64,000 bases of DNA from Gaiella occulta (GTDB lineage: Bacteria > Actinomycetota > Thermoleophilia > Gaiellales > Gaiellaceae). The DNA is taken from the NCBI RefSeq assembly GCF_003351045.1, contig NZ_QQZY01000004.1, positions 1-64,000 of the forward strand, given 5' to 3'. Made by a program: the position numbers and the translations under genes. The notes beneath the pieces were generated by a model. The model was given only the letters and a program-made list of their open reading frames with translations, ran no database searches and was not told the origin of the DNA. Position 1 is the stretch's first letter, and every line of letters begins with the position of its first letter. Positions 25,841 through 55,289 of the stretch are shown piece after piece.

Positions 25841-27283
25841 TCAGCGTGCGAGCCGCCGCAGCCCGGCGCCGATCGCGCGCCGCTCGGCCGGCACGTAGAA
25901 GCCGAGCGGCACGAGCACGAGCGGGTAGGCGAGCGCGAGCGCGAGCGCGACCGGCAGGCCGCCGCCGCCGATCTTGCCGGCCGCCGCGAGCGCGACGCCC
26001 GCGAGGGCGGCGGTGAGCACCCGGCGCCACTGGTAGGGGACAGGGTAGACGCGTTGCGCCCACCAGGCCATGCCCGCGAACATGACGGCATAGGCCGCGA
26101 CCGTGGCGACAGCCGCCCCCATCATCCCGTAGGGCGGGATCAGCGCCAGGTTGAGCCCGACGTTGACGGCGGCGGCGGCTCCGGTGATGACCCAGTTGAA
26201 CTGGGTGCGCCGGGCGCGCCCGATGCCGATCGAGAGCACGATGTAGCCCGCGAATGCGACGGCCGCGAACGCAAGCGGGCCCACGACCCGCGACGACTCC
26301 GCGAACTTCGGCGCCGCCAGCCAGCCCACGAGCCACGGCGAGAGCAGGGCGAGCGCGGTTGCAACCCAGGTGGTGAGCACGACGAGGTACGTGAGCACCC
26401 ATCGATAGGTGAGCTTCGCCTCGTCGTCGCCGCGGATCGAGTAGGCGAAGGCGGGCCACGCGGTGCGGAACGCCGTCAGCAGCAGCACCATCGCCGAGGC
26501 GATGCGCACGCCGACCGAGTAGAGGCCGACCTCGTCCGGCCCTGCCAGCTTGACGAGGAAGATGCGGTCGCTGAAGTTCGTCACCCACAGGAGCAGCGCC
26601 GACGGCACGAGCGGCATGCCGAAGCGGTTCATGTCGCGCAGCAGGCTGCGGCTCATCTGCAGGCCGAGCTGCTCGCGCCGGTACCCGAGCAGCGCCAGGT
26701 AGACGGCGAGCGTGCCGACGAAGTTCCCGACGACGACGCCGAGCGCGCCCTTGTCGAGCACGACGACGAGCAGCACCGTGGCGCCGACGGTGACGAAGAT
26801 GTTGACGAGGCTGGCGAGCACGAAGGCGGCCGACCGCTCCTCGACGCGGAACAGTGCCGTGAGCTGCTCGTAGTTCATCTGCGCCCAGAGGCCGACGAAC
26901 GAGGCCCGGACGATCCCCGTCGCCGAGCCCGTGCCGAAGAGCGCGTGCGAGACGGGCGCCGCGAGCAGGACTCCCGCGACGAGCCCTGCGGTCGCCGTCG
27001 TCATCGTGAACCAGAACGAGGTGCGCAGCACGAGCCGCCGCCGCGCGGGCTCGTCGGCGTCGAAGTAGAAGCGGAAGAACGCCGACGAGATGCCGAAGCG
27101 GAGGACGATCGCGAGCGCCGTCGTCAGCGCGACGAGGGTCTCGATCTGCCCGTAGTCGCTCTTCGAGAGGTAGTGCGTGTAGAGCGGGAGCAGGAGGACG
27201 GCGAGGATCCGCGAGACGAGGCCGCCGAGGCCGTAGATCGCGGAGTGCTTGCCGAGTCGCTTGAGCTGGCCTGCGAGCGCCAT
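25841..27283 (-). CDS. Polysaccharide flippase, Wzx/MATE-like (PST family)
   Basis: 480 residues with about 12-14 helices. Begins M-A-L-A-G-Q-L-K-R-L-G-K-H-S-A-I-Y-G-L-G-G-L, the amphipathic start typical of Wzx/RfbX-type lipid-linked oligosaccharide flippases. Y-L-S-K-S-D-Y-G is the conserved first-loop motif and D-R-I-F-L-V-K-L-A-G-P-D-E-V-G-L-Y-S the second-half motif. It would move undecaprenyl-linked glycan across the membrane. Last gene of a five-gene operon: its ATG shares a base with the stop of the glycosyltransferase gene (TGATG). Convergent with yabK-side genes across the palindromic repeat. Confidence 0.9.
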   Translation of the reverse strand: MALAGQLKRLGKHSAIYGLGGLVSRILAVLLLPLYTHYLSKSDYGQIETLVALTTALAIVLRFGISSAFFRFYFDADEPARRRLVLRTSFWFTMTTATAGLVAGVLLAAPVSHALFGTGSATGIVRASFVGLWAQMNYEQLTALFRVEERSAAFVLASLVNIFVTVGATVLLVVVLDKGALGVVVGNFVGTLAVYLALLGYRREQLGLQMSRSLLRDMNRFGMPLVPSALLLWVTNFSDRIFLVKLAGPDEVGLYSVGVRIASAMVLLLTAFRTAWPAFAYSIRGDDEAKLTYRWVLTYLVVLTTWVATALALLSPWLVGWLAAPKFAESSRVVGPLAFAAVAFAGYIVLSIGIGRARRTQFNWVITGAAAAVNVGLNLALIPPYGMMGAAVATVAAYAVMFAGMAWWAQRVYPVPYQWRRVLTAALAGVALAAAGKIGGGGLPVALALALAYPLVLVPLGFYVPAERRAIGAGLRRLAR

Positions 27284-28248
27284 CAGAGCCGAGCGTAGAC
27301 GTCGAGCAGGCGGTCGGCGACGCGCTCCACGTCGTGTACGTGCTCGACGTAGGCGCGCGAGGCGGCTCCGATGCGGCGCCGCTCGGCCGCGTCGGCGACG
27401 AGCGGGCGCAGCCGCTCGCGCAGCGTCTCGGCGCTGGCCGAGACGATCGGCACCTCCATGCCGAACGCCTCGCCGGTGCGGCGGACGGCCTCGTCGTGCA
27501 GGAAGGCGACGACCGGCTTGCCGAGCGCCATGCACTCGATCGCGAACAGCCCGTACCAGCCGGCGTTGAGCTGGTCGACGACGATGTCGGCTCCGCGGTA
27601 GCGCGCGAGCGCCTCGTCGTGGTGGAGGCCCTCGACGATCTCGAGGTCGGCGTCGAGCCCCTCGACGGCGGCGACGACGTGCTCGGTTCCCTTGCGGCGG
27701 CGCGACGAGGGAGCGTGCACGATCAGCGGTCGCTCGCGGTCGCGGGGCGCTACCGGGTCGATGCGCGAGAGGTCGATGCCGGGCGGGATCACCTCGGCCT
27801 CCGGCACCCAGCGCAGCGCGTCGTAGCTGCCGACGATCTCGGCGCCCGCCTTCTTGCCGTAGGCGAGCTGCTCGCGCGTCTTGCCGCGGATGTCGGAGCC
27901 GAGGTAGTGCATCACGGACTTCTTGCCGAAGAGCTTCAGGATCGGGAACTGCAGCGTCTGCGGCACGAGCGTGAGACCGAAGACGAAATGGAAGACGTCG
28001 GTGCGCGGGAGCAGCTCGAGCAGGGCCCGCCACTGGCGCGGCTGCCGGCGCAGGAAGCCGCCGCGGAGGTCGAGCGAGCGGTCCGCCTCGGGGTGGAGCG
28101 CGTAGCGCTCGAACACCACGAGCCGCGCGTCGACGCCGCGGCGGCGCAGCGCCTGCACGTTCGTCCACGGGACACCCGCCGTGTTGACGGGGCAGTGGAC
28201 GACGCGCAGCGGCCGCTCCGCGCCGTGCGCAGGCGCGCCCGCGCTCAC
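27283..28248 (-). CDS. Glycosyltransferase family 4-like (GT-B)
   Basis: 321 residues from GTG 28248. The N-terminal half reads L-R-V-V-H-C-P-V-N-T-A-G-V-P-W; the C-terminal GT-B half has V-H-A-P-S-S-R-R-R-K-G-T-E and A-I-E-C-M-A-L-G-K-P-V-V-A-F, the nucleotide-sugar binding E-x7-E region. Shorter than many GT4 enzymes (350-400). It should extend or start a lipid-linked glycan for the flippase encoded next. Separated from the upstream ATP-grasp gene by 7 bases. Confidence 0.85.
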   Translation of the reverse strand: MSAGAPAHGAERPLRVVHCPVNTAGVPWTNVQALRRRGVDARLVVFERYALHPEADRSLDLRGGFLRRQPRQWRALLELLPRTDVFHFVFGLTLVPQTLQFPILKLFGKKSVMHYLGSDIRGKTREQLAYGKKAGAEIVGSYDALRWVPEAEVIPPGIDLSRIDPVAPRDRERPLIVHAPSSRRRKGTEHVVAAVEGLDADLEIVEGLHHDEALARYRGADIVVDQLNAGWYGLFAIECMALGKPVVAFLHDEAVRRTGEAFGMEVPIVSASAETLRERLRPLVADAAERRRIGAASRAYVEHVHDVERVADRLLDVYARL

Positions 28249-28255
28249 TCCTGGC

Positions 28256-29281
28256 TCACGCGTCCCATTCGATCTGGTCGAAGTAGCGCAGCGCCGTGCG
28301 GCCCGGCCTGATGCGGGGCCGCAGCGCCACGAGCTCCTCGGGCGTGATCTCGCCGAGCGCGCGCTTGACGCCCAGGTACGGCAGGTCGAGGTCTTCCTGG
28401 TAGACGATCGTCGAGATGCGCGGGTTGATCTCGATCACGTGGTCGCCGACGAGCTGGATGTTGAAGAAGTGCTCGATGCCGAGCTCGGCGACGATCAGGT
28501 CGGCGATCGCCATCAGCGCAGGGTCGTCGAGGGTGACGAAGTACATGGCAAGGCCGGCGCGCATCGCCTCGCGCGTCTTCGGATGCCCGAGCAGCACGCG
28601 CTCGCCGTCGGCGATGCCGTCGATCGTGCGCTCGCCGCCCGTCGCCAGCTCCATCACGAGCAGGTCGGGGCCGCCCTCGGCGGGCAGCAGCTCGACGGCC
28701 TCCTCGAGCCGCATCGCCACCGAGCCGGGCCGCTCGTCGAGGAGCTGGCGGGCGCGGTCGACGGTCGGGTCGAGGACGCGGAAGCCGCGCGAGCCGGACG
28801 AGAACACCGGCTTGAAGCACACGGGCACGTCGGGATAGCCGAGCTCGCGTGCGGCCGCCTCGACCTCCGCCGCCCCGCTGACGCGGCGGAACGCGGGCGC
28901 GGGCAGGCCGAGCCGGTGGAGGAAGGCATAGGTCTCCGCCTTGTCGTTGCAGCGGAAGATCGCGTCGGGCCGCGAGACGAGCACCGGCACCGGGAAGCTC
29001 TCCCGATGCTGCGCGAGCCCCTCGAGGTCGAACGACGACTGCGGCAGCACGCAGTCGGCGCCCTCGCGCTCGACGATCGCCCGGATCGCGTCGGCGAAGC
29101 CCGGGTCGGATCCCGCCGGCACGAGATGGAACGCGTCGCAGAGATGGCGGCCGACCGAGCGCTCCGACATGTCGGTGCCGACGAGCCGCACCTCGCGCTC
29201 GCCGTTCTCGCGCAGCCCGCGCAGCAGGGCGGCGGTGCCCGGCGCGCCGGACGCCGTGACGACGACGGTGATCGGCCTCAT
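28256..29281 (-). CDS. ATP-grasp ligase (carbamoyl-phosphate-synthase large-subunit-like)
   Basis: 341 residues from ATG 29281, whose ATGA overlaps the stop of the deacetylase-like gene. The pre-ATP-grasp Rossmann-like part (V-V-V-T-A-S-G-A-P-G) leads to the ATP-grasp core with N-D-K-A-E-T-Y, C-F-K-P-V-F-S-S-G-S-R-G-F and the Mg-binding I-E-I-N-P-R-I-S-T. Such ligases join a carboxylate to an amine through an acyl-phosphate. Within a polysaccharide operon it may aminoacylate or acylate an amino sugar. The substrate is unknown. Confidence 0.85.
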   Translation of the reverse strand: MRPITVVVTASGAPGTAALLRGLRENGEREVRLVGTDMSERSVGRHLCDAFHLVPAGSDPGFADAIRAIVEREGADCVLPQSSFDLEGLAQHRESFPVPVLVSRPDAIFRCNDKAETYAFLHRLGLPAPAFRRVSGAAEVEAAARELGYPDVPVCFKPVFSSGSRGFRVLDPTVDRARQLLDERPGSVAMRLEEAVELLPAEGGPDLLVMELATGGERTIDGIADGERVLLGHPKTREAMRAGLAMYFVTLDDPALMAIADLIVAELGIEHFFNIQLVGDHVIEINPRISTIVYQEDLDLPYLGVKRALGEITPEELVALRPRIRPGRTALRYFDQIEWDA

Positions 29282-29919
29282 GACAGGTCGATTCTGTCCT
29301 CTGCGAGCTGCTCGAGGCGCCGCCGTCTCTCCGCCTCGAGCATCGCCCGCATCGTCTGCCCCATCGTCGCTCCCTCGTAGGCCCAGATCTCCGGGTGCGT
29401 GAGCAGCTGCAGCCACGGGAACGCGCCCGCGCGCAGTCCCTCGTGCGGGCAGCCGCAGCGCCAGTGCTGGTTCGAGTCGGAGCGGTACGTCGATCGGTCG
29501 AAGTAGCGTTCCTCCATCACGTTGATCGGTCCGCCGAGCGGGGCGCTCATGTACTCCGGGTCGGGGTTGTGCCAGGCGACGACGGGGTCGAAGCGCCCGT
29601 CCAGCCCCGCGTTGGGGTAGACGGCGTGCAGCCCGACGCGGTGGCCGAGCGCCCGCAGCCGCTCGATCGCCGCGGCGCCTTCCCTCGACGCGAGGTTGTA
29701 GAAGACCGACTCGGTCATGAGGAAGTACGTCGCCGTCGCCCCTGCCTCGTGCTCGAGCTCGGCCATCCGCAGCGCCGCGTCGAGCGAGAGGTCGACGTCG
29801 TGGCGCAGGAACAGGTCGCCCTCGTCGGGGCCCTCGCCGAAGTGGGCGAAGCGGTAGCCGCCGGCCCTGGCGGCCTCGAGGATCTCCCCGTAGTGGCCGA
29901 AGTCGAAGGCGCACGTCAT
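29278..29919 (-). CDS. Polysaccharide-deacetylase-like (NodB-fold) protein
   Basis: 213 residues, coupled by ATGA at both ends to ATP-grasp genes. F-L-R-H-D-V-D-L-S corresponds to NodB motif 1 (here H-D-V-D). Later A-T-Y-F-L-M-T, G-L-H-A-V-Y-P-N-A and L-L-T-H-P-E match motif regions 2 and 5 of this subfamily, which lacks a clear second zinc histidine pair. It may deacetylate a sugar to free the amine that a neighbouring ligase then acylates. This gene order supports that idea but it is inference. Confidence 0.75.
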   Translation of the reverse strand: MTCAFDFGHYGEILEAARAGGYRFAHFGEGPDEGDLFLRHDVDLSLDAALRMAELEHEAGATATYFLMTESVFYNLASREGAAAIERLRALGHRVGLHAVYPNAGLDGRFDPVVAWHNPDPEYMSAPLGGPINVMEERYFDRSTYRSDSNQHWRCGCPHEGLRAGAFPWLQLLTHPEIWAYEGATMGQTMRAMLEAERRRRLEQLAEDRIDLS

Positions 29920-31130
29920 ACCGGCGCCACCTCGACCTCGAGCAGCGCCGCCGCCGCCTCGGCGCGCGCGAGCGCGGTGTCGGCGTCGTCCGCGACGGCG
30001 ATCACGTAGCCGCGGCGGTCGCCGTCGAGCCGGACGGGGCGGATCGTCTCACCGACCTGGAGGTAGGTGTCGGCCTGGACGACGCCTTCCGCCGCGAGCA
30101 CCGGGTCGAGGCTGCCGATGCGCAGCACCTTCCCCGCCGGCAGCGGGCCCGGCTGCGCGGTGAAGAAGCGGATCGCGAGCGGCTGCCGGAAGCGTGGCAG
30201 CGCCACGTCGTCGGGCACCTCCTCTCCGAGTGCCTGTCGCAGCGCCACCTCGACGAGGTCGACGCCGACGGCGTGGCGCACGAGGTCGGCCATCTGCCCT
30301 CCCGGGATGCGCGCCGCCACCTCGACGACGGCGACGCCGCCGTCGGGCGCGGCGATCAGCTGCGGGAACGCGATCCCGTCGCGCAGGCCGAGCGCGCGGA
30401 CAGCGTCCGCCGCCACCTGCTCCGCCAGCGCGTGCTGCTGCGGGCGAAGCCGCGCCGGGTAGACGTGGATCCAGCCGACGCCGAAGCCGATCCCCGGCGG
30501 GCGCAAGCGGTCGGACAGCGTCAGCGCCGCCGGCTCGCCGCCGCGCGCGATGACGATGCCGTTCATCTCCAGCCCGTCGACGAAGCCCTCCAGGATCGCC
30601 TCGCCCGAGCGCGACTCCGCGAGCGCGTCCGGCAGGTGGCGCTCCAGCTGCGCGCGCGTCTCGACCCGGAAGATGCCGCGCTGGCCGCCCGAGTCGGACG
30701 GCTTCAGCACCCCCGGCAGCGGCACCGCCTCGAGTGCGGCGTCGATGGCGGCGGGCGAGGCGAGCGCCGAGAACGGCGGCTGCGGCACGCCCGCCTCGGC
30801 CAGGCGTCTGCGCATGACGAGCTTGTTCGTCATGCGCAGGGCGACCGCGGTGCCGATCGACGGCAGGCCGAGGCGCTCCGTGACCGCGGCGACGACGGGC
30901 ACCGCGCGGTCGGCCGAGACGGTGAGCGCACCGTCGACCTCGTTCCTGCGGGCGACCTCCGTGACCGCGTCGACGTCGCTGAAGTCGACCGCCTCGGGGA
31001 CGTCGGCGGCCTGCAGGCCGGGAGCGTCCGGATTGCGGTCGACGCCGACGACGCGCAGCCCACGCTCGCGTGCCTGCAGGATCGCACGGCGCTGGTGGCG
31101 CCCGGCGCCGACGAAGAGGACGGTCTTCAC
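29916..31130 (-). CDS. ATP-grasp ligase, first gene of the flippase operon
   Basis: 404 residues from GTG 31130. V-L-F-V-G-A-G-R-H-Q-R-R-A at the N-terminus is a PurK/CPS-like preATP-grasp fold; T-N-K-L-V-M-R-R-R-L-A-E-A-G-V-P and L-K-P-S-D-S-G-G-Q-R-G form the ATP lid, and V-V-E-V-A-A-R-I-P-G-G is the metal-binding strand. It closely resembles the ATP-grasp protein at 39975, so two loci here use the same ligase type. Minus-strand TAGCAT (31140-31145) ends 9 bases before the start. Confidence 0.87.
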   Translation of the reverse strand: MKTVLFVGAGRHQRRAILQARERGLRVVGVDRNPDAPGLQAADVPEAVDFSDVDAVTEVARRNEVDGALTVSADRAVPVVAAVTERLGLPSIGTAVALRMTNKLVMRRRLAEAGVPQPPFSALASPAAIDAALEAVPLPGVLKPSDSGGQRGIFRVETRAQLERHLPDALAESRSGEAILEGFVDGLEMNGIVIARGGEPAALTLSDRLRPPGIGFGVGWIHVYPARLRPQQHALAEQVAADAVRALGLRDGIAFPQLIAAPDGGVAVVEVAARIPGGQMADLVRHAVGVDLVEVALRQALGEEVPDDVALPRFRQPLAIRFFTAQPGPLPAGKVLRIGSLDPVLAAEGVVQADTYLQVGETIRPVRLDGDRRGYVIAVADDADTALARAEAAAALLEVEVAPV

Positions 31131-31171: not shown

Positions 31172-31591
31172 TCAGCCGGACGCCGTCCACACCACCGGCA
31201 GCAGGAACGCCAGCCGGTTCCAGCGGCTGATCTCGCAGCCGTTGTCGCGCTTCAGGCGCACCCACACCCGCTGCCCGTCGACGACGCCCTGGACGACCGC
31301 CGCCTGCGGGCCGCCGTAGATCTCCGTGCAGGCGACGCCGCGCGGCAGGGGCTGCAGGCCGCGCAGGCCGACCCGCGCGAGCCCGCGGCAGGCGAGCGAG
31401 CGCCGCGGATGGGTGCCGCCCACGGGGTTGCAGCGCAGGGTGGCGGCGACGCGTGTCGCCGGCTCGCGCGCGTCCTCGAAATAGGTGATCGTGAGCGACG
31501 TGCGCGGCGCCGCCGCCGCGGACGAGCCGCCGACCGGCGCGGCTGCGACGAGCGTGGCCGCGACGAGCGCGAGAGCTGCCGGGGAGCGCAT
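31172..31591 (-). CDS. Subtilisin-inhibitor-like (SSI family) secreted protein
   Basis: 139 residues from ATG 31591 with a clear signal peptide (about 1-28, A-L-A-L-V-A-A-T-L then A-A-A-A-P). The mature part has four cysteines in the SSI arrangement: L-R-C-N-P-V-G-G-T-H-P, L-A-C-R-G, V-A-C-T-E-I-Y and N-G-C-E-I-S, enough for two disulfides. SSI proteins block serine proteases of the subtilisin type. By alignment with C-P-M-V of the classical inhibitor, the P1 residue here would be Glu (C-T-E-I), which is unusual and hints at Glu-specific proteases or lost activity. A -10 box 8 bases upstream supports this start over ATG 31597. Confidence 0.78.
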   Translation of the reverse strand: MRSPAALALVAATLVAAAPVGGSSAAAAPRTSLTITYFEDAREPATRVAATLRCNPVGGTHPRRSLACRGLARVGLRGLQPLPRGVACTEIYGGPQAAVVQGVVDGQRVWVRLKRDNGCEISRWNRLAFLLPVVWTASG

Positions 31592-31599
31592 GTCCATCA

Positions 31600-31623: not shown

Positions 31624-32595
31624 GTGTCACTGAGCGGCAAGCGGATCCTGATCACGGGCGGGGCCGGATTCATCGGCACGACGCTCGCGCGCCGCCTCGT
31701 CGACGACAACACGGTCGTCGCGATGGACAACCTGCACCGCGACGCGCTGTCGGGCACGGCGCTCGCCGAGCACCCCAACTTCACGTTCGTGCAGGGCGAC
31801 ATCCTCGAGCCGGAGCGACTCACAGAGCTCGCCCGCGACGCCACCCACATCGTCCACGCCGCCGCGATCGCGGGCGTCGACACCGTGCTCGCGAGCCCCG
31901 TGCGCACGATGCGCGTCAACACGATCGGCACGTACAACGTGCTCGAGGCGGCGCTGACGACGAAGGACACGCTCGAGCGCCTGATCGAGTTCTCCACGAG
32001 CGAGGTGTTCGGCCAGCACGCCTTCAACGTGGGCGAGGGTCACGTCACCACGATCGGCTCCGTCGGCGAGGCGCGCTGGACGTACGCGGTCTCGAAGCTC
32101 GCCGGCGAGCACATGACGCACGCCTACCACGACGAGTTCGGGTTGCCCACCGTCACGGTGCGGCCGTTCAACATCTACGGGCCCGGCCAGATCGGCGGCG
32201 GCGCCATCCGCGCCTTCATCGAGGCGGCGCTCGACGGCCGCGAGCTCACGATCCACGGCGACGGCTCGCAGATCCGGGCCTGGACCTACGTCGACGACAT
32301 GGTGGAGGGGCTGTTGCTCGCGCTCGAGCACCCGGCCGCGGTCGGGGAGAGCTTCAACATCGGCAACCCGCGCTCGGCCGTCACGATCTTCGATCTCGCC
32401 CAGCGCATCAAGAGGCTCACGGGAGCCGCCGCCGGCATCACGTTCCAGCCGCTCCACTACACCGACGTGGAGCTGCGGATCCCGAACGCGACCAAGGCCC
32501 GCGAGCTGATCGGCTTCGAGGCGAAGGTCGAGCTCGACGACGGCCTCGAGCGGACGATCGCCTGGTACCGCGAGCGCCGGCTCGGCGCAGCGTGA
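31624..32595 (+). CDS. Extended SDR: NAD-dependent sugar epimerase/dehydratase
   Basis: 323 residues from GTG 31624. NAD site I-T-G-G-A-G-F-I-G-T-T (about 9-19). H-A-A-A-I-A-G and the F-S-T-S-E-V-F-G segment precede the catalytic tyrosine in W-T-Y-A-V-S-K-L-A-G-E-H, so Y-x-x-x-K is present. R-P-F-N-I-Y-G-P-G is the substrate loop. It is closest in style to UDP-glucuronate decarboxylase or GDP-sugar dehydratase/epimerase enzymes. Its stop overlaps the aminotransferase GTG (GTGA), so it likely makes the keto sugar that enzyme aminates. Confidence 0.88.
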   Translation: MSLSGKRILITGGAGFIGTTLARRLVDDNTVVAMDNLHRDALSGTALAEHPNFTFVQGDILEPERLTELARDATHIVHAAAIAGVDTVLASPVRTMRVNTIGTYNVLEAALTTKDTLERLIEFSTSEVFGQHAFNVGEGHVTTIGSVGEARWTYAVSKLAGEHMTHAYHDEFGLPTVTVRPFNIYGPGQIGGGAIRAFIEAALDGRELTIHGDGSQIRAWTYVDDMVEGLLLALEHPAAVGESFNIGNPRSAVTIFDLAQRIKRLTGAAAGITFQPLHYTDVELRIPNATKARELIGFEAKVELDDGLERTIAWYRERRLGAA

Positions 32596-33662
32596 GCGAG
32601 CCCATCCGCCTCGCGCGGCCGGACGTCGGCGAGGCCGAGCTCGCCGCGGTCGCCGCGGTCGTCGCAAGCGGCATGCTCACGATGGGCCCGAAGGTGGGCG
32701 AGCTCGAGCGCGCGCTCGCCGGCGCCTGCGGCACGGCCGACGCGGTCGTCGTCTCGTCGGGGACGGCGGCGCTCCACCTCGCCATGATGGCCCTCGGCGT
32801 CGGCCCGGGCGACGAGGTGATCGTGCCCGCCTACACGTTCCCGGCCACGGCCAACGCGGTCGAGCTCTGCGGGGCGCGTGCCGTGCTCGTCGACGTCGAC
32901 CCGGACACCTTCGACCTCGAGCCCGCGCACGTCGCCGCTGCTCTCGGCGAGCGTACGAAGGCGGTGCTCGCCGTGCACCTGTTCGGGCGCCCCGTCGACT
33001 GGGAGGCGCTCCGCGCCGCGGTGCCGCAGGAGGTGGCCCTCGTCGAGGATGCGGCCGGCGCGCTCGGCGCGCGCTACCGCGGCCGGCCCTGCGGGTCGCT
33101 CGGCGTGATGGGCTGCCTGTCGTTCCACCCGCGCAAGATCGTCACCACCGGCGAGGGCGGCGCCGTCACCACCGACGAGCCCGAGCTCGCCGACGCGATC
33201 CGGCGCTTGCGCCACCACGGCATCGTCTCGCACGGCGGCTTCGACATCCCGCAGCCGGGTCTCAACTACCGCCTGCCCGACCTCCTATGCGCCGTCGGCA
33301 TTCCGCAGCTGGAGCGGCTCGAGCGGCTGCTCGCCGCGCGCGAGCGCGTCGCGGGCTGGTACACGGAGCGGCTCGAGCAGCTCGTGCTGACCCCGTCGGC
33401 GGCCGAGGGCGACCGGCACGGCTGGCAGGCGTACGTCGTGCAGCTCGACCGGCGCGACGAGGCCCTCGAGGCGCTGCGCGCCGAGGGCATCGAGGTGCAG
33501 ATCGGCACCTACGCGCTGCACCGCCTCGGCGCCTACCGCGACCGCGGCGCCTTCCCCGGCGCCGACCGTGCCTTCGCACGCGCGCTCGCGCTCCCCTTCT
33601 CGACGACGACGACGGAGTCCGAGTGCGACCGCGTGGCCGAGGCGCTCGCGCGCCACGTCTGA
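32592..33662 (+). CDS. DegT/DnrJ/EryC1 family sugar aminotransferase
   Basis: 356 residues from GTG 32592. S-G-T-A-A-L-H-L-A-M (PLP phosphate region), V-E-D-A-A-G-A-L-G-A (aspartate to the ring nitrogen) and F-H-P-R-K-I-V-T-T-G-E-G-G with the Schiff-base lysine are all intact. The H-P-R-K-x-x-T-T-G-E-G-G form is typical of the enzymes making amino sugars such as perosamine or bacillosamine precursors. Coupled to the SDR gene upstream. Confidence 0.92.
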   Translation: MSEPIRLARPDVGEAELAAVAAVVASGMLTMGPKVGELERALAGACGTADAVVVSSGTAALHLAMMALGVGPGDEVIVPAYTFPATANAVELCGARAVLVDVDPDTFDLEPAHVAAALGERTKAVLAVHLFGRPVDWEALRAAVPQEVALVEDAAGALGARYRGRPCGSLGVMGCLSFHPRKIVTTGEGGAVTTDEPELADAIRRLRHHGIVSHGGFDIPQPGLNYRLPDLLCAVGIPQLERLERLLAARERVAGWYTERLEQLVLTPSAAEGDRHGWQAYVVQLDRRDEALEALRAEGIEVQIGTYALHRLGAYRDRGAFPGADRAFARALALPFSTTTTESECDRVAEALARHV

Positions 33663-39021: not shown

Positions 39022-40020
39022 GTGAGCAAGCGTGTCCTCGTCACCGGCGGCGCCGGGTTCATCTCGTCGAACGTGATCCGCCACCTGCTGGCGCGGACGC
39101 CCTACGAGGTCGTGTCGCTCGACGCGCTCACCTACGCGGGCAACCTCGAGAACCTCGCCGACGTGATGAGCCACGAGCGGCTCTCGTTCGTGCACGGCGA
39201 CATCCGCGACGCGGCCCTCGTCGCCGACCTCGCCGCCGGGGTCGACGTGATCGTGAACGCCGCCGCCGAGTCGCACGTCGAGAAGTCGATCGCGGAAGGC
39301 GCTTCCGAGTTCGTGACGACGAACGTGGAGGGAACGCAGATCCTGCTCGATGCGATCCGGCGCACGCCCGTCGAGCGCTTCATCCTGATCTCGTCGAGCG
39401 AGGTGTACGGCACGGCGGAGACCGACCCGATGGACGAGCGCCACCCGCTCGAGCCGCGCAGCCCCTACGCCGCGACGAAGGCGGGAGGCGACCGGCTCGC
39501 CTACAGCTACTTCGTCACGTACGGGCTGCCGATCGTGATCGTGCGCCCGTTCAACAACTACGGCCCGCGGCAGCACCCGGAGAAGGCCGTGCCGCGCTTC
39601 ATCACGCAGGCGCTCGCCGGCGAGGCGCTGACGATCCACGGCGACGGCCACGCGAGCCGCGACTGGCTGTACGTCGACGACCATGCCGAGGCGATCGAGG
39701 CGTTGATCGAGGCGCCGCTCGACGCGGTCGCGGGCGAGGTCGTCAACGTCGCCACGGGGGTCGACATCTCCGTCGCCGAGATCGCCGACCTCGTCCTCGA
39801 CGCGGTCGGCAACCCGGAGGCGACGAAGGAGTACCTGCCGGAGCGGCCCGGCCAGGTCGACCGGCACATCGGCTCGACCGGCAAGATGGAGCGCCTCACG
39901 GGCTGGCGGGCGCGCACCGACTTCGCCGCCGGGCTCGAGCAGACGGTCGCCTGGTACCGCGAGAACGAGGCCTGGTGGCGGAGCGTCCTCGGTCGCGCCG
40001 ACCGCGTCTCCTCGTCCTAG
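39022..40020 (+). CDS. dTDP-glucose 4,6-dehydratase-like SDR
   Basis: 332 residues from GTG 39022. NAD site V-T-G-G-A-G-F-I-S-S-N; D-A-L-T-Y-A-G-N-L-E-N-L is the RfbB signature; A-A-E-S-H-V-E-K-S-I; catalytic segment S-P-Y-A-A-T-K-A-G-G-D. The hydride-transfer helpers of true dTDP-glucose dehydratase (T-D-E) read S-S-S-E-V-Y-G here, so the Asp is absent and the enzyme may instead be an epimerase or another nucleotide-sugar dehydratase. It overlaps the ATP-grasp gene by 46 bases. Confidence 0.85.
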   Translation: MSKRVLVTGGAGFISSNVIRHLLARTPYEVVSLDALTYAGNLENLADVMSHERLSFVHGDIRDAALVADLAAGVDVIVNAAAESHVEKSIAEGASEFVTTNVEGTQILLDAIRRTPVERFILISSSEVYGTAETDPMDERHPLEPRSPYAATKAGGDRLAYSYFVTYGLPIVIVRPFNNYGPRQHPEKAVPRFITQALAGEALTIHGDGHASRDWLYVDDHAEAIEALIEAPLDAVAGEVVNVATGVDISVAEIADLVLDAVGNPEATKEYLPERPGQVDRHIGSTGKMERLTGWRARTDFAAGLEQTVAWYRENEAWWRSVLGRADRVSSS

Positions 40021-41180
40021 GCGCCGGCGCCGCCCAGCTCGGGCTGCTCGAGGCGGCCCGCGCCCGCGGCGTCCACGTGATCGCGGCCGACAGGGATCCG
40101 CAGGCGCCCGGGTTCGCGCTCGCCGACGAGCGTGCCCTCATCTCGTCGGAGGACGAGCAGGCGATCGAGCGGCTCGCGCGCGCGCGCGACGTCGACGGGC
40201 TCGTCTCCCCCGGGGCCGACTGGCCCGTGGGGATCGCCGCCCGCGTCGCCGCGCATCTCGGCCTGCCGCACCCGATCGACGGCGCCGCCGCGGTGCTCGC
40301 GACGACGAAGACGCGCCAGCGGGAGCGCCTCGCCGCCGCCGGGGTGCCGCAGCCGCGCACGTTCGCCGCCGGCGACCCGGAGATCGCGTTCCCGTGCGTC
40401 GTCAAGGCGCCCGACCGGCAGGGCCAGCGCGGTCTCACGCTCGTGCGCGAGCGCTCGGCGCTGGCCGCCGCGATCGAGGCCGCCGTCGCAGAGTCGCGAG
40501 GCGGATCGGCCCTTGTCGAAGAGCTCGTCGACGGCCCCGAGGTGACCGTGAACGCCGTCTCGGTCGACGGCCGCTTCGTCCCGCTCACCGTCACCGACCG
40601 CCTCACGGCGGAGCCGCCCGCCTTCGGTGTCGCGCTCGCGCACGCCTGGCCGAGCGCGATCGACGAACGGCCGCCGATCGAGGTCGCGCGGGAGGCGGCG
40701 ACGGCGCTCGGGGTGCGGAACGGCCCCACGTACACGCAGATCCGCGTCGGCGCCGACGGCCCGAAGGTGGTCGAGGTCGCGGCGCGTCTCGGCGGCGGTC
40801 ACGACGCCGAGCTGTGCCGTGCCGCCGTCGGCGTCGATCTCAACGATCTCGCCGTCTCGTTCGCCCTCGGCGAGCCGCCGACGGCAAGCGGCTCGGATCC
40901 GCAAGCGCTGCCTTCCGTCGGCGGGGCGTGCGTCCTCTTCCTCGTCGCGCCCGAAGGGGTGCTGCGCGCGGTCGAAGGGGTGGAGGCGGCCGAAGCCGTC
41001 GAGGGAGTCGAATGGGTGCGAACCTACCGGCGCCCCGGCTGGCGCTTCGGGCCGCTGCGGCGCGGCGCAGACCGTGCCGGTGCCGTGCTCGCGGTCGGCG
41101 CGGATCGCGACGACGCGCTCGGGCGGGCCCGCCGTGCCGCGCAGGCCCTACGCTTCCTGGTCGATGCAGACGCGTCGTAG
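39975..41180 (+). CDS. ATP-grasp ligase
   Basis: 401 residues from GTG 39975. L-V-L-G-A-G-A-A-Q-L-G-L-L-E-A-A (pre-ATP-grasp fold), T-T-K-T-R-Q-R-E-R-L-A-A-A-G-V-P, V-V-K-A-P-D-R-Q-G-Q-R-G (ATP lid) and V-V-E-V-A-A-R-L-G-G-G-H-D (metal site) line up with the protein at 29916. It lies between a dehydratase gene and an aminotransferase gene, overlapping both (46 and 17 bases). A reaction joining a carboxylate to the amino sugar made by these enzymes is a reasonable guess. Confidence 0.86.
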   Translation: MAERPRSRRPRLLVLGAGAAQLGLLEAARARGVHVIAADRDPQAPGFALADERALISSEDEQAIERLARARDVDGLVSPGADWPVGIAARVAAHLGLPHPIDGAAAVLATTKTRQRERLAAAGVPQPRTFAAGDPEIAFPCVVKAPDRQGQRGLTLVRERSALAAAIEAAVAESRGGSALVEELVDGPEVTVNAVSVDGRFVPLTVTDRLTAEPPAFGVALAHAWPSAIDERPPIEVAREAATALGVRNGPTYTQIRVGADGPKVVEVAARLGGGHDAELCRAAVGVDLNDLAVSFALGEPPTASGSDPQALPSVGGACVLFLVAPEGVLRAVEGVEAAEAVEGVEWVRTYRRPGWRFGPLRRGADRAGAVLAVGADRDDALGRARRAAQALRFLVDADAS

Positions 41181-42288
41181 CTCCCGGCTCGGCTTCCAGC
41201 CGCCCGCCGTCGGCGAGGAGGAGGTCGCGGCCGTGGCCGACGCGCTCCGCTCCGGCTGGCTCACCACGGGGCCGCGGGCGGCGCTGCTCGAGGAGCGCAT
41301 GGCCGCCTATCTCGAGGCGAAGCACGTCCTCGCGGTCGCCTCGGGCACGGCGGCGCTGCACCTGTCGCTGCTCGCGCTCGGGGTCGGGCCCGGCGACGAG
41401 GTGATCACGAGCCCGATCACGTGGCCCGCGACCGCGAACGTGATCGAGCATTGCGGCGCCACGCCGGTGTTCTGCGACGTGCGGCCCGGCGACCTCAACA
41501 TCGACCCCGCGCTCGTGCCCGGCCTTCTCAGCGAGCGCACGAAGGCGATCATGCCCGTGCACCTCGCCGGCCAGCCGGCCGACCTCGACCCGCTCCTCGC
41601 GCTCGGGCTGCCGGTCGTCGAGGACGCCGCCCACGCCGCCGAGAGCGCCTACCGGGGCCGCAAGATCGGCTCCATCTCCGACGCCGCCTGCTTCTCGCTG
41701 TACGCGACGAAGAACATCGCCGCCGGCGAGGGCGGCCTCGTCGCGACCGACCGCGACGACGTCGCGCAGGCGATCCGCGACATGCGGCTGACCCGGCGCG
41801 GGGACGGCGCCCGCTACGACCAGGTGAGCGCGGGCTTCAAGGCGAACCTGCCCGACGTGCTGGCGGCGATCGCGCTCGTGCAGCTCGACCGCGTCGAGGA
41901 GCACGCGCGCATCCGCGCCCGGCAGTTCGCCCTCTACGACGAGGGCCTCGCCGGCCTCGCCGGCATCGAGCCGCTCGAGCGCGACCCGCGCGACACGCAC
42001 GCGCTGCACCTCTACATCGTGCGCATCGACCCGGCCGCGGCCGGCGCCTGCCGCGACGACTACCAGCGGGCGCTCGACGTGGAGCTGATCGGCACGAGCA
42101 TCCACTTCCTGCCCGTGCACCGGCTGACGTGGTTCCGCGGCCGCTACCCGTCCCAGCCGCCGCTGCCGGTCGCGGAGCGGGCAGGCGACGAGGTGCTGTC
42201 ACTGCCGCTCTCGCCCGCGCACTCCGAGGCGGACATCCTCGACGCCGTCGACGCGATCCGGCGCGTGCACGCGCGCTTCACCGCATGA
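41164..42288 (+). CDS. DegT/DnrJ/EryC1 family sugar aminotransferase
   Basis: 374 residues from ATG 41164. S-G-T-A-A-L-H-L-S-L, V-E-D-A-A-H-A-A-E-S and the lysine in L-Y-A-T-K-N-I-A-A-G-E-G-G are complete. The T-S-P-I-T-W-P-A-T-A-N loop differs from the two other aminotransferases in the window, so it probably acts on another sugar. It overlaps the ATP-grasp gene by 17 bases and the next gene by ATGA. Confidence 0.92.
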   Translation: MQTRRSSRLGFQPPAVGEEEVAAVADALRSGWLTTGPRAALLEERMAAYLEAKHVLAVASGTAALHLSLLALGVGPGDEVITSPITWPATANVIEHCGATPVFCDVRPGDLNIDPALVPGLLSERTKAIMPVHLAGQPADLDPLLALGLPVVEDAAHAAESAYRGRKIGSISDAACFSLYATKNIAAGEGGLVATDRDDVAQAIRDMRLTRRGDGARYDQVSAGFKANLPDVLAAIALVQLDRVEEHARIRARQFALYDEGLAGLAGIEPLERDPRDTHALHLYIVRIDPAAAGACRDDYQRALDVELIGTSIHFLPVHRLTWFRGRYPSQPPLPVAERAGDEVLSLPLSPAHSEADILDAVDAIRRVHARFTA

Positions 42289-49984: not shown

Positions 49985-50007
49985 TTCCTATTCTTGGAGG
50001 TCGCCGG

Positions 50008-50838
50008 ATGGATCGCTTTGGCGTCTTTGTCGATGCGGGATATCTGTACGCGGCGTCCGGGAAGCTCCTCTTCGGAACGACGGACCGAAAGAAGTTCTCA
50101 CTGAACTTCGAGTCCATCGTCGAGCGGCTGATCGCTCTTGGCAAAAAGGATTCAGGGTCATCGTATCTGCGTACCTACTGGTACGATGGCGCCAGAAACG
50201 CGGTACCATCTGCGCAGCATCTCATTGTTGCCAATCTCTCCGGGGTGAAGCTTCGTCTCGGCCGTCTGACCCCTCATGGTCAGAAGGGTGTCGACTCACG
50301 GATCGTGCGAGATCTCATCGTTCTCGCCACGCAGCAGGCGATCTCGACCGCGTACCTCATTGGCGGAGACGAGGACCTACGCGAGGGAGTCAGCGAGGCA
50401 CAGGAGCGCGGAGTTCGCGTTGTCCTCGTGGGCGTCGAACCACTGAATGAGCAGAATCTCTCACCAACGCTCGCGATGGAGTCCGACGACGTGCTCGTTC
50501 TCAAACGTGACTTTGTAGAACGCCACTTCCGCCTTCGTGATCCCGAGTTCGTCGAGGTGATCGAGCCGGCGGATCCGACCGACGTCGAAGCGCACGGCGG
50601 CGTGTTCGCACTCGCCTGGAGCGAGAAGGCGTCGCCCGAAGAGCTAGGAGCGGTGATCGAGCAGATCTCTCGATCGATCCCACCCGAGATCGACCGACAA
50701 CTTCTCGCGTACGGTGCCGGCGCGCTCAAGGTCGGAAGGCTAGCGGACGAGCCGAAGCGGCAGCTCCGGCTAGGGTTCGGCAATACGCTCAAGAGTTTGG
50801 GCGCGTCGGCGCCCACGGACGAAGAGGAGGACACGTAG
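50008..50838 (+). CDS. NYN-domain (LabA/DUF88-type) nuclease-like protein
   Basis: 276 residues with a good ribosome site (GGAGG, 49996-50000). PIN-like NYN fold at about 3-170: D9 in F-V-D-A-G-Y-L, W-Y-D-G-A-R-N, D96 and D102 in K-G-V-D-S-R-I-V-R-D, and D121/D123 in G-G-D-E-D-L; all acidic metal-binding positions are present, so RNase activity is likely. The C-terminal ~90 residues are a helical domain of unknown type. GC content and codon use differ from the glycan genes on both sides, suggesting horizontal acquisition, perhaps as a defence or RNA-processing gene. Confidence 0.88.
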   Translation: MDRFGVFVDAGYLYAASGKLLFGTTDRKKFSLNFESIVERLIALGKKDSGSSYLRTYWYDGARNAVPSAQHLIVANLSGVKLRLGRLTPHGQKGVDSRIVRDLIVLATQQAISTAYLIGGDEDLREGVSEAQERGVRVVLVGVEPLNEQNLSPTLAMESDDVLVLKRDFVERHFRLRDPEFVEVIEPADPTDVEAHGGVFALAWSEKASPEELGAVIEQISRSIPPEIDRQLLAYGAGALKVGRLADEPKRQLRLGFGNTLKSLGASAPTDEEEDT

Positions 50839-50923
50839 TGGAACGTATGCTCCGCACCGCTTGGGCGAGCGCGGTCTGAATGAGTCCCGCGAGTACGACC
50901 GTGCGTAGCTCTGCGGTGATTCA

Positions 50924-53722
50924 GTGATGCGATTCGTCTCACCCATCTCTTTCCTCTATCCTGAGCGCCTGGCTGGAGCGCCCTCCGCGTGGATCCCGCA
51001 TGTCCCATTTGCGTTCTGGCTCGTCGAGGCGCTCAGGCCGTCTTCGATCGTTGAACTCGGCACGCACACAGGCGTCTCGTACTTCGCGTTCTGCCAGGCC
51101 GTTCAGCACCTCGGGCTCGATACTCGCTGCCGCGCTATCGATTCGTGGCTCGGTGACGAACACGCGGGATATTATGGCGAAGACATCTACGAGGACGTGC
51201 GCGCCTATAACGATGCGCATTACTCAAAGTTTTCCGAGCTTCTACGTATGACCTTCGATGAAGCAGCATCGCGCTTCGCCGATGGCTCCGTCGACCTTCT
51301 CCACATCGATGGGTGCCACATGCACGAGGCAGTGCGCCACGACTTCGAGACATGGTCACCCAAGCTTTCCCAGCGTGCAGTCGTTCTCTTCCACGACACC
51401 AATGTGCAGGAGAGAGGATTCGGAGTCTTCCGCCTCTGGGATGAGCTCAGGGAACAGTATCCGCACTTCGAGTTTCTGCACGGATCTGGGCTCGGCGTGC
51501 TCGGCTGGGGACCGACAGGCTCCACGGATATAAATGCTCTCCTAAGCCTGAATCAGAACGCGGTGCTCATAGCTAAGACCAGGGCCGCGTACGAACGTCT
51601 CGGGGGGAGTCTCCTCGACTGGCATGGGATTCGCGATGTAAGTGCGGAGCCTGTCGCGCGCCACACTGGCGCGGATCGATCCCGGATCGACATCGCAGCC
51701 CGGGACGCCGAGATAGAGCGCCTTCAGCACGAGACGTTTGTCCTCCGCAGCGACCTGGATCGGACGGCCGCCGCCCTTGCGGAGCTCCGGCAGAGTTCTA
51801 CGTGGAGGGCCACGGCGCCCGTGCGTTCTTTCCTTGCCTCACGACCTCGGCTGACTCGCGGACTGAGGCGCACGGCGAAGCTGGTGTGGTGGACGGTGAC
51901 GTTTCAAGTCATCAGACGGCTCCGAGAGCGGCGGGAACGTGGGCGGGCTCGGCACGGTGCGCGCGGCTACGCCGACTGGATTCGCGCATACGACACCATC
52001 AGCCACGAGGACGTGGAAGCCTTGCGCAACGCCAATGCCCTCTTGACGACGCAGCCGTTGATCTCGGTCGTCATGCCTGTGTTCGAACCCGAAGAGCATT
52101 TTCTTCGTGAAGCGATCGAATCCGTCCTTGCGCAGACGTACGAAAATTGGGAGCTGTGCATTGCCGATGACGCCTCCGCCCATGCCTGCGTTCAGCGGGT
52201 GCTCGACGAGTTGCAGATATGCGATGCTCGGGTGAAGATGGTAACCAGGAAGACGAATGACGGTATTTCTGCTGCGTCGAACGATGCTCTCGAGCTCGCC
52301 TCGGGCGAATGGATAGCGCTCCTCGACCACGACGGCATACTGCGTCCACATGCTCTATTCATGATTGCTCGAACGGTCGAGAACCACCCGGGTGTGATGT
52401 ACATCTATTCTGACGAAGATAAGATTGATGAGTCCGGTGCGCGGATCGATCCCTATTTCAAACCCGATTGGAATCGGACTTTATTCTATTCGCAGAATTA
52501 CATATGTCATGTCTCGGCTTTCAGACGGCACCTCGCCACACGGTGCGGCGGATTTCGCGCTGCCTTCGACGGCTCTCAGAACTGGGATCTGTTTCTCCGC
52601 ATGACGGCGGCTATCACACCGGAGGCAATTCATCACATTCCTCATGTTCTCTACCATTGCCGGGCGCTGCCGTCCGCTACGGACTCGATCGTAGACGCGA
52701 AGACCTGCGCAGTCGACGCGGCGACACGAGCGCTGAAGGATCGTCTGACCGCTGACGGGGTGCAAGCGGACGTGCACACCATCCGTGGGAGCTACAATCA
52801 GGTTCGCTATCGGCTGCCTGCCGACCCTCCGGGCGTGAGCATCGTCATACCGACCACAGGCAAGCTGCGATTCCTCGAGCAGTGCATCGAGGGCGTGTTG
52901 CGTCGTACCGATTACCCCAATCTTAAGGTCTTGCTCGTGCTGAGCAAGGATGCGATGAACGTCATCGAGCAGCGGTCGTACCTGGAGGAGATCGCCACTG
53001 ACCCACGCGTGCGGTTGCTCCTCCACGACGACAGGCCGTTCAACTTCTCGTGGGTGAACAACTGGGCGGTCTCTCAGGTAGACGACAGCATCATCTGCTT
53101 CCTGAACGACGACACAGATCCGATCAGCGAGGGCTGGCTTCGGTCGATGGTCGGGCATCTCCTACAGGAAGGCGTCGGGGCAGTCGGTGCGAAGCTCTAC
53201 TACCCCGATGGCACCATTCAGCACGCCGGCGTCGTGCTCGGACTCGGTGGTGTAGCCGATCACCTCTACCGATCGCTCCCTCGCGAGTCGGACGGCTACT
53301 TCGGACGGGCGAAATTGGATCAGGATCTCTCGTGCGTGACCGCCGGTTGCATGCTTATGAGAAAGGCTGTGTTCGACGATCTCGGCGGGTTCGACGAGTC
53401 CTGGGGCGTTGCCTTCAACGACGTCGATCTCTGCATTCGTATTCGAGAGGCCGGATGGCGGATCGTCTGGACGCCCTCTGCCGAGCTCTATCATCGCGAG
53501 TCGATCTCGCTCGGGCGACATGACGCCCCAGCACGGCGAGCGCAGTTCGAAGACGAAGTACGCATGCTCAGGGAGCGATGGGGAGCGATCCTCGACCGCG
53601 ATCCGCACTACAATCCGAATCTCTCGCTCGAGCGGCAGTGGGATCTCGCGTTCCCGCCACGCGTCGCCTATCCATGGCGAGCAGCAACAGAGGCTGAGGC
53701 GATCGATCGGTCTCCCCGGTAG
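50924..53722 (+). CDS. Trimodular protein: methyltransferase, coiled coil, two GT2 domains
   Basis: 932 residues from GTG 50924 (ATG 50927 equally possible). Residues ~1-230: class I SAM methyltransferase (V-E-L-G-T-H-T-G-V-S-Y at about 43, H-I-D-G-C-H, V-V-L-F-H-D-T-N). ~250-290: coiled coil (R-D-A-E-I-E-R-L-Q-H). ~376-610: first GT2 (S-V-V-M-P-V-F-E-P, then D-D-A-S, L-L-D-H-D-G as the metal motif). ~636-900: second GT2 (S-I-V-I-P-T-T-G-K, F-L-N-D-D-T-D and the V-A-F-N-D-V-D-L-C catalytic segment). Such proteins cap or extend repeating glycans while sizing them, as in O-antigen chain terminators. Lower GC than neighbours; part of the insert. Confidence 0.87.
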   Translation: MMRFVSPISFLYPERLAGAPSAWIPHVPFAFWLVEALRPSSIVELGTHTGVSYFAFCQAVQHLGLDTRCRAIDSWLGDEHAGYYGEDIYEDVRAYNDAHYSKFSELLRMTFDEAASRFADGSVDLLHIDGCHMHEAVRHDFETWSPKLSQRAVVLFHDTNVQERGFGVFRLWDELREQYPHFEFLHGSGLGVLGWGPTGSTDINALLSLNQNAVLIAKTRAAYERLGGSLLDWHGIRDVSAEPVARHTGADRSRIDIAARDAEIERLQHETFVLRSDLDRTAAALAELRQSSTWRATAPVRSFLASRPRLTRGLRRTAKLVWWTVTFQVIRRLRERRERGRARHGARGYADWIRAYDTISHEDVEALRNANALLTTQPLISVVMPVFEPEEHFLREAIESVLAQTYENWELCIADDASAHACVQRVLDELQICDARVKMVTRKTNDGISAASNDALELASGEWIALLDHDGILRPHALFMIARTVENHPGVMYIYSDEDKIDESGARIDPYFKPDWNRTLFYSQNYICHVSAFRRHLATRCGGFRAAFDGSQNWDLFLRMTAAITPEAIHHIPHVLYHCRALPSATDSIVDAKTCAVDAATRALKDRLTADGVQADVHTIRGSYNQVRYRLPADPPGVSIVIPTTGKLRFLEQCIEGVLRRTDYPNLKVLLVLSKDAMNVIEQRSYLEEIATDPRVRLLLHDDRPFNFSWVNNWAVSQVDDSIICFLNDDTDPISEGWLRSMVGHLLQEGVGAVGAKLYYPDGTIQHAGVVLGLGGVADHLYRSLPRESDGYFGRAKLDQDLSCVTAGCMLMRKAVFDDLGGFDESWGVAFNDVDLCIRIREAGWRIVWTPSAELYHRESISLGRHDAPARRAQFEDEVRMLRERWGAILDRDPHYNPNLSLERQWDLAFPPRVAYPWRAATEAEAIDRSPR

Positions 53723-53732
53723 CCTCAGCCGG

Positions 53733-55193: not shown

Positions 55194-55273
55194 ACCATCG
55201 GTGCCTGACTGTTCGCTCCTCGCCGGTGGAGTCGACCCACAGGTGCTCTCCGGCTCGAGCCGTGCATGCGGGG

Positions 55274-55279
55274 TACGCT
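55274..55279 (+). promoter_or_regulatory. -10 box TACGCT of the 55290 GT2 gene
   Basis: TACGCT ends 10 bases before GTG 55290, favouring it over ATG 55266. Confidence 0.4.
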
Positions 55280-55289
55280 GGCTCCGCTT

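Follow-up and report, generated by a model that had tools for sequence, protein, structure and literature searches.

A deacetylase-like gene between two ATP-grasp ligases in a Gaiella occulta flippase locus: a predicted amide-tailoring set for surface amino sugars

What chemistry is served by a deacetylase-like gene that lies between two ATP-grasp ligase genes in a flippase operon? In the window, the 64,000-nucleotide stretch of Gaiella occulta DNA analysed here, open reading frame calls place an overlapping triplet, g30–g29–g28, on the minus strand at 28256–31130, as the initial annotation had reported, and reading the bases at both junctions (g30/g29 and g29/g28) gave the ATGA overlaps that it had described. 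The first gene, g30 (29916..31130; 404 aa, GTG start), encodes an ATP-grasp protein of the L-amino-acid-ligase type with a LAL_C2 domain; g29 (29278..29919, minus strand; 213 aa) encodes a WbmS-like hydrolase of NodB/CE4 fold, predicted to be an N-deacylase; and g28 (28256..29281, minus strand; 341 aa) encodes a PylC/PRK12767-type ATP-grasp ligase, an optional member of the set. Directly 3′ of g28 on the same strand are a GT4-type glycosyltransferase-like gene, g27 (27283..28248; PF00534 at E 1.3e-4, which is under the cut-off, in a conserved position), and then a Wzx-like flippase gene, g26 (25841..27283; PF01943, 75 bits; cut-off 28.2), so the proposed flippase context stands. A divergent dehydratase–aminotransferase pair (31624–33662, plus strand) is part of the conserved locus. 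It consists of g32 (31624..32595), an NDP-sugar 4,6-dehydratase/epimerase-type SDR (PF01370, E 2.5e-57) whose exact assignment we withhold because TIGR01181 gave 167 bits against a cut-off of 365, and g33 (32592..33662), a DegT/DnrJ/EryC1 sugar aminotransferase (PF01041, E 2.8e-100) for which PseC and ArnB are the nearest NCBIfam models, both under cut-off. A gene for a subtilisin-inhibitor-like protein, g31 (31172..31597, minus strand; PF00720 SSI, 41.6 against 23.9), lies 41 bases upstream of the triplet on the same strand and is a frequent, inconstant neighbour found in part of the relatives.

The arrangement is not confined to this genome. Homologues of g29 were present in 53 of 299 genomes of the class. 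Our neighbour survey, which left out distant same-class matches and g28-only loci, took in the window together with 53 loci, 54 stretches in all, and counted 53 of them, since in L078 no g29 match passed the threshold. Among judgeable loci, that is, excluding those cut by contig ends, a LAL ligase gene preceded g29 in 41 of 44 (35/37 in the window's family, f1, and 6/7 in its sister family, f2), and g28 followed g29 in 39 of 47 (31/39 and 8/8, respectively). The g32 and g33 genes were divergent upstream in 21 of 26 f1 loci. Because the same order recurs in genomes of two families, the triplet is not a product of chance, and the search of other genomes that had been proposed as a check thus favours it; conserved order, the overlaps and the codon-position pattern together rule out chance overlap or spurious reading frames. 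The coupling extends to the SDR in f2, where the SDR, LAL and g29 genes each overlap by four bases in three loci (L090, L098 and L099), and in L098 g28 is next after this chain. Methyltransferase genes, which are accessory, are inserted in some loci.

Not every member of the set is constant. We found that g28 was missing from 8 of the 39 judgeable f1 loci, and a whole-genome search of seven genomes revealed no g28 match at E 1e-10 or better in five; in the same search G299 gave a weak partial match only and G096 a true copy. As g28 is optional, two obligatory ligations are not supported, and the stepwise action of both ligases, first suggested for this locus, is rejected as an obligatory scheme. 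In G096, g28 and g30 are adjacent and g29 is absent from the whole genome, and in other families g28 occurs without g29 beside other glycan genes. Two loci (L058 and L060) keep g29, g27, g26, g32 and g33 and have neither ligase at the locus. The g30–g29 pair stands among other genes, away from glycan genes, in L087; it is likewise away from glycan genes in L088 and L129, but contig edges lie there.

Both ligases score over Pfam cut-offs as ATP-grasp proteins. The g30 protein matched PF18603 (LAL_C2) with 58.1 bits against a gathering cut-off of 29.4, and its predicted model (pLDDT 94.3) matched the L-amino acid ligase 3vot_B over the full length of the fold (E 3.7e-29, TM 0.85/0.87). It thus resembles L-amino acid ligases (BL00235, PDB 3vot; BacD and RizA) in its domain and whole-length ATP-grasp fold, but it is only 23% identical to 3vot and sits in an amino-sugar/flippase locus; unlike that of L-amino acid ligases, its acceptor is probably not a free amino acid. 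The g28 protein passed the wider Pfam domains PF15632 (39.1 against 29.1) and PF21360 (31.9 against 27), which it shares with the PRK12767 ‘carbamoyl phosphate synthase-like’/PylC-like proteins, but it fell under every NCBIfam cut-off of that group, the best being NF009402 (87.2 bits against 218). No glycan function of the PRK12767/PylC-like group is established in the literature that we found. Metal/phosphate residues typical of the superfamily are conserved in g30 (Q257, E270 and R274) and in g28 (Q276, E284, N286 and R288), which we take to be CPS-like. Membership of a primary-metabolism family unrelated to glycans would have counted against a glycan role. We found that NCBIfam scores of g28 and g30 were far under the cut-offs of CarB, PurK, PurD, PurT, Ddl and AccC, and that the same genome has a separate CarB (1283 bits), so neither is a primary-metabolism enzyme.

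A second LAL-type ligase gene lies further along the window. As the initial annotation had noticed, g40 (39975..41180, plus strand; PF18603, 63 bits against 29.4) is placed between a dTDP-glucose 4,6-dehydratase-like SDR gene, g39 (39022..40020, plus strand; TIGR01181, 324 bits, cut-off 365), and an ArnB-like DegT aminotransferase gene, g41 (41164..42288, plus strand; PF01041, E 3.9e-104; NF008658, 322 bits, cut-off 631). Its product is 39% identical to g30, it has these two partners without a deacetylase, and the g39–g40–g41 order recurs in L077, L119 and L126.

The central gene was harder to place. We found no match of g29 to any Pfam or NCBIfam model over cut-off, and none to PF01522 at E 0.1, so we do not file it as a PF01522 member; among four distant relatives scanned, one passed that model (27.0 against 23.1), one fell short (16.9) and two had no match. 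Searching the PDB with the single sequence returned nothing at E 10, profile searches returned weak CE4 matches only, and Foldseek alone gave only weak matches, at E 0.015. Comparison of the predicted model (pLDDT 94.9) by fold gave WbmS (3hft) as the best match (VIA Z 10.7, 166 residues, 3.5 Å), and the matches at rows 2 to 30 are likewise CE4-type by their entry titles; on this model, g29 is a CE4 barrel of the WbmS branch. It shares the fold and the RHDVD and late His-Pro motifs with CE4 deacetylases and with WbmS (BB0128, a putative O-antigen polysaccharide deacetylase of Bordetella), but its identity to WbmS is 15% in the structural alignment, it is operonic with two ATP-grasp ligases, and in f1 it lacks the canonical second His of CE4 motif 2 (HxxxH). 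Seven residues are invariant in the 41 rows of our g29 alignment A3 (R39, H40, D41, D43, H98, H117 and H175), with D43 and H98 as candidates for two places of the Asp-His-His metal triad of CE4 enzymes. At the level of the alignment to 2j13, H117 falls at the place of motif 3, and it may replace the missing second metal-binding His. Given this deviation in the metal site, we grade g29 as a probable, rather than certain, active hydrolase. The locus also provides a context for the WbmS family, for which a structure has been solved, yet is titled only a putative deacetylase.

Amide-linked amino acids occur on bacterial glycans. On balance we favour, with moderate confidence, a reading of the triplet as the amino-sugar amide-tailoring part of a surface-glycan pathway that runs from g32/g33 through g30, g29 and an optional g28 to g27/g26, and the gene set is predicted to attach amino acids or similar acids to an unusual amino sugar before its transfer to the surface. 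Family membership and conserved linkage suggest that g32 (the SDR) and g33 (the aminotransferase) convert a nucleotide sugar to an NDP-amino-deoxy sugar. With ATP, g30 would then form the acyl-phosphate of an amino acid (or similar acid) and join it to an amino group, which is most likely the one newly made on the sugar. The order is least certain for the next step, in which g29 would take off an N-acyl group such as acetyl or formyl, so that either the sugar or the residue joined to it would present a second amine. In lineages that have it, g28 could then use this exposed amine for another amide bond, a step that lineages without g28 would omit. Last, g27 would use the decorated sugar and the flippase g26 would move it. 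The locus had been proposed to work by a deacetylase exposing an amine for two carboxylate–amine ligases. What survives of that proposal is ligase chemistry with a deacetylase-like neighbour in an amino-sugar/flippase locus; the deacetylase as the needed source of the amine does not, because DegT and a 4,6-dehydratase-type SDR are in the locus and g40 has both of these partners without a deacetylase. The same evidence lowers the case for the deacetylase as sole amine source, and the aminotransferase is more likely to supply the amine than deacetylation alone.

One possible alternative, which we consider unlikely, is that g29 makes no second amine and serves in deprotection. In the pathway to 4-amino-arabinose, ArnA, ArnB and ArnD follow such a logic, with ArnD removing a protecting group. 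By analogy, the amino sugar would be N-acylated (for example, formylated), moved to a lipid carrier and deprotected by g29, whereupon the ligases would work on the exposed 4-amine. Our locus shares an SDR, DegT and a NodB-type hydrolase with the Arn pathway. The scores of g33 and g41 next to ArnB and PseC are consistent with this alternative, and in a Longimicrobiaceae locus (L197) one stretch joins an SDR, DegT, a glycosyltransferase, a g29 homologue (the NodB-type protein, identified by homology) and a formyltransferase (PF00551, 56.7 bits). However, no formyltransferase was among the 11 window proteins scanned, and in both f1 and f2 a LAL ligase takes the place of constant partner instead. 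We know of no ATP-grasp ligase that is part of the Arn pathway.

That g30 is a true dipeptide ligase is improbable. It would make a peptide or peptide-like metabolite whose N-acyl group g29 hydrolyses, and glycan genes would use the product in some lineages or never. That the top structural matches of g30 include 3vot, an L-amino acid ligase proper, would fit, as would the free-standing pair in L087, yet most loci are strongly linked to SDR, DegT, glycosyltransferase and flippase genes, and the SDR–LAL overlap in f2 also speaks against it. We regard as very improbable that the ligases amidate a sugar carboxylate (a uronic acid) with an amine after g29 has prepared the sugar by deacetylation. 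Genes for nucleotide sugar dehydrogenases lie nearby in the haloarchaeal relatives, and a capsule pathway offers a precedent in Cj1438C of Campylobacter jejuni, which is reported to be a TupA-like amidoligase acting on the carboxylate of glucuronic acid (PMC11800379). What it has in common with our locus is the making of an amide by an ATP-grasp enzyme, in its case on a sugar of the capsule. By contrast, none of g28, g30 and g40 had a Pfam match to the TupA-like ATP-grasp family at E 0.1, and the constant partner in our loci is an aminotransferase, the maker of a sugar amine.

The enzyme types are known individually, and we found no description of their combination in the literature searched. 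Cj1438C is the sole proven ligase of such chemistry in the literature found. In Clostridium acetobutylicum, PMC4000134 places an ‘ATP-grasp amino acyl ligase’, CA_C2189, in a predicted modified-polysaccharide operon (CA_C2186-2197), a setting like that of our triplet; it differs in that CA_C2189 is paired with a DUF4910 protein and the cluster has a sialic-acid-synthase-like gene, and the word deacetylase is absent from the main text of that paper. No paper joined ATP-grasp, polysaccharide deacetylase and O-antigen, and none joined ATP-grasp with Qui4N, in a full-text literature that leaves most subscription journals outside and in which absence is weak evidence.

Relatives also occur at greater distance. 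We counted 17 loci outside f1 and f2, including two distant members of the window's class (L213 and L214) and excluding L198 (from an f2 genome), L161, L169, L101-L104, L108 and the plasmid loci L111-L116. In the sequence surrounding the g29 homologue, DegT occurred in 9 of these 17 and a g28-type ATP-grasp in 6; among six such genomes searched whole, five had a single g28-type gene (E 1e-20 or better) and one had none. Haloarchaeal genomes, too, show a link between the deacetylase-like gene and the family of g28. A bolder proposal, speculative and rather unlikely to hold, is that these loci represent a widely conserved, undescribed system in which a LAL ligase, a WbmS-type deacylase and then a PylC/CarB-type ligase take turns at ATP-grasp ligation and deacylation and so equip 4-amino sugars with short, peptide-like side chains, with a deacylase–ligase partnership common to actinobacteria and haloarchaea. 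The ligase–deacylase–ligase set supplies named genes, from a soil lineage that has been little studied and from haloarchaea, with which amide-bond making could be tested. Searches of phage and plasmid sequences returned one weak phage record and 11 plasmid records, eight of them haloarchaeal by name.

The triplet lies on the minus strand and comprises an L-amino-acid-ligase-type (LAL_C2) ATP-grasp gene (g30, 31130–29916), a gene for a WbmS-like, CE4-fold putative deacylase (g29, 29919–29278) and a PylC/PRK12767-type ATP-grasp gene (g28, 29281–28256). Inspection of the bases at both junctions confirmed the two ATGA joints reported in the initial annotation, the coordinates and order of which were also correct. 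The gap from g28 to the start of a glycosyltransferase-like gene (g27) is 7 bases, and the end of g27 overlaps a Wzx-like flippase gene (g26) by one base. The host is an actinobacterium; its genome is GC-rich and 3.03 Mb in size. At the head of the operon is a subtilisin-inhibitor-like (SSI) gene (31172–31597), which recurs in some relatives; just 26 bases separate its start from that of the divergent SDR gene.

Of 299 genomes of the class, 53 carry a g29 homologue; 39 of these belong to the family of the window (f1) and 9 to a sister family (f2), and the remaining 5, with weak scores, lie elsewhere. Our locus tally covers 53 places, taken from fetched stretches. For f1, a same-strand LAL gene lay upstream of g29 in 35 of 37 judgeable places, and in 20 of the 37 that have an upstream LAL (places of any length) the two genes share four bases. 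Judgeable f1 places also retained g28 downstream (31/39), a downstream glycosyltransferase and flippase (27/33), and a divergent SDR and DegT aminotransferase upstream (21/26). The f2 loci contained LAL in 6 of 7 and g28 in all 8 judgeable places, with the four-base LAL/g29 overlap in 7 of 8; DegT and the flippase were on the opposite strand wherever the fetched stretch included them. The f2 SDR is on the same strand as the triplet, and in L090, L098 and L099 its last four bases are also the first four of the LAL gene; the sugar-making enzymes are therefore tied to the ligase.

Of the 39 judgeable f1 places, 8 lacked g28, and whole-genome searches (E 1e-10) detected no g28 in G003, G027, G289, G285 and G271. 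Neither ligase was present at the locus in L058 and L060, and the sole LAL of G003 belongs to a second g30–g29 pair elsewhere in that genome. Where a gene is inserted between g30 and g29, it was a methyltransferase in the three such places scanned (L057, L062 and L085), and a different methyltransferase lies between g29 and g28 in L073. Given this variation, the core of the set is the ligase–hydrolase pair g30–g29, to which g28 is an accessory. The second pair of G003 (L087:6967–8843) is diverged and outside any glycan cluster; its neighbours read as amino-acid metabolism and protease genes. Elsewhere in the window, a dehydratase–LAL ligase–aminotransferase trio (g39–g40–g41, 39022–42288) is kept without a deacetylase in L077, L119 and L126.

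LAL_C2 scored above its cut-off in g30, the predicted structure of which (pLDDT 94.3) matched ATP-grasp enzymes that include the L-amino acid ligase 3vot. g28 exceeded the Pfam cut-offs for ATPgrasp_Ter, PylC-like_N and ATP-grasp_3 and reached no NCBIfam cut-off. In alignments, both retain the Gln and Glu (and Arg) that would be expected near the metal in carbamoyl-phosphate-synthetase-like enzymes.

Family scans of g29 (Pfam and NCBIfam) gave no match except a sub-threshold DUF1702 (16.1 bits versus a cut-off of 25). Its model (pLDDT 94.9) was closest to WbmS (3hft; Z 10.7, 3.5 Å over 166 residues, 15% identity), with CE4 deacetylases ranking next; Foldseek by itself was weak (E 0.015), and sequence profiles reached CE4 enzymes only at E 0.001 or weaker. 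R39, H40, D41, D43, H98, H117, H175 and W179 were invariant in 41 proteins (alignment A3), although H117 was nearly, not fully, invariant in the more diverse A1 (31 rows). In the profile alignment, H98 aligns with the first His of CE4 motif 2, and the second-His position is not His in f1. The metal site may be shifted, because H117 occupies the position of the motif 3 Arg in 2j13.

The best-supported reading, which we favour slightly, is that the triplet forms a module for amide tailoring of an amino sugar before export. Only the genes were observed, and we infer every reaction. The 4,6-dehydratase-type SDR g32 and the DegT aminotransferase g33 would supply the sugar amine, g30 would form an amide, g29 would carry out N-deacylation and g28 could add an optional further amide, before transfer by g27 and flipping by g26. 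The main rival, an Arn-like protection–deprotection scheme, seems unlikely. The contexts of distant g29 homologues together fit N-modified amino sugars. One in Sphingomonas lies among acetamidino-sugar genes, and one in a Longimicrobiaceae genome occurs with SDR, DegT and formyltransferase genes. Among 17 distant loci from a named-genome scan, the fetched stretch held DegT in 9 and a g28-type ATP-grasp in 6. Six distant genomes searched whole (E 1e-20), four of them non-independent haloarchaea, contained exactly one g28-type gene in five cases and none in one; alignment A5 includes proteins from several of the loci. The gene order is NodB-type, GT2, ATP-grasp, HAD in haloarchaeal L207 and deacetylase, glycosyltransferase, ATP-grasp, HAD in Haloarcula L115.

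The component kinds are already known: WbmS, an ATP-grasp capsule amidoligase (PMC11800379) and an ATP-grasp aminoacyl ligase predicted within a polysaccharide cluster (PMC4000134). The combination of ligase, deacylase-like protein and ligase was not found in the open-licence literature searched.

Two further observations concern the surroundings. Positions 50001–56000 have a GC content of 61–65%, versus about 73%, and few genes that are native-like by codon use, the composition that a glycan segment of recent acquisition would show. About 1.1 kb past the window end, in the same polysaccharide region, another PylC-like/ATPgrasp_Ter ATP-grasp gene (L235:3112–4083) lies directly 3′ of an apparent bacterial sugar transferase gene.
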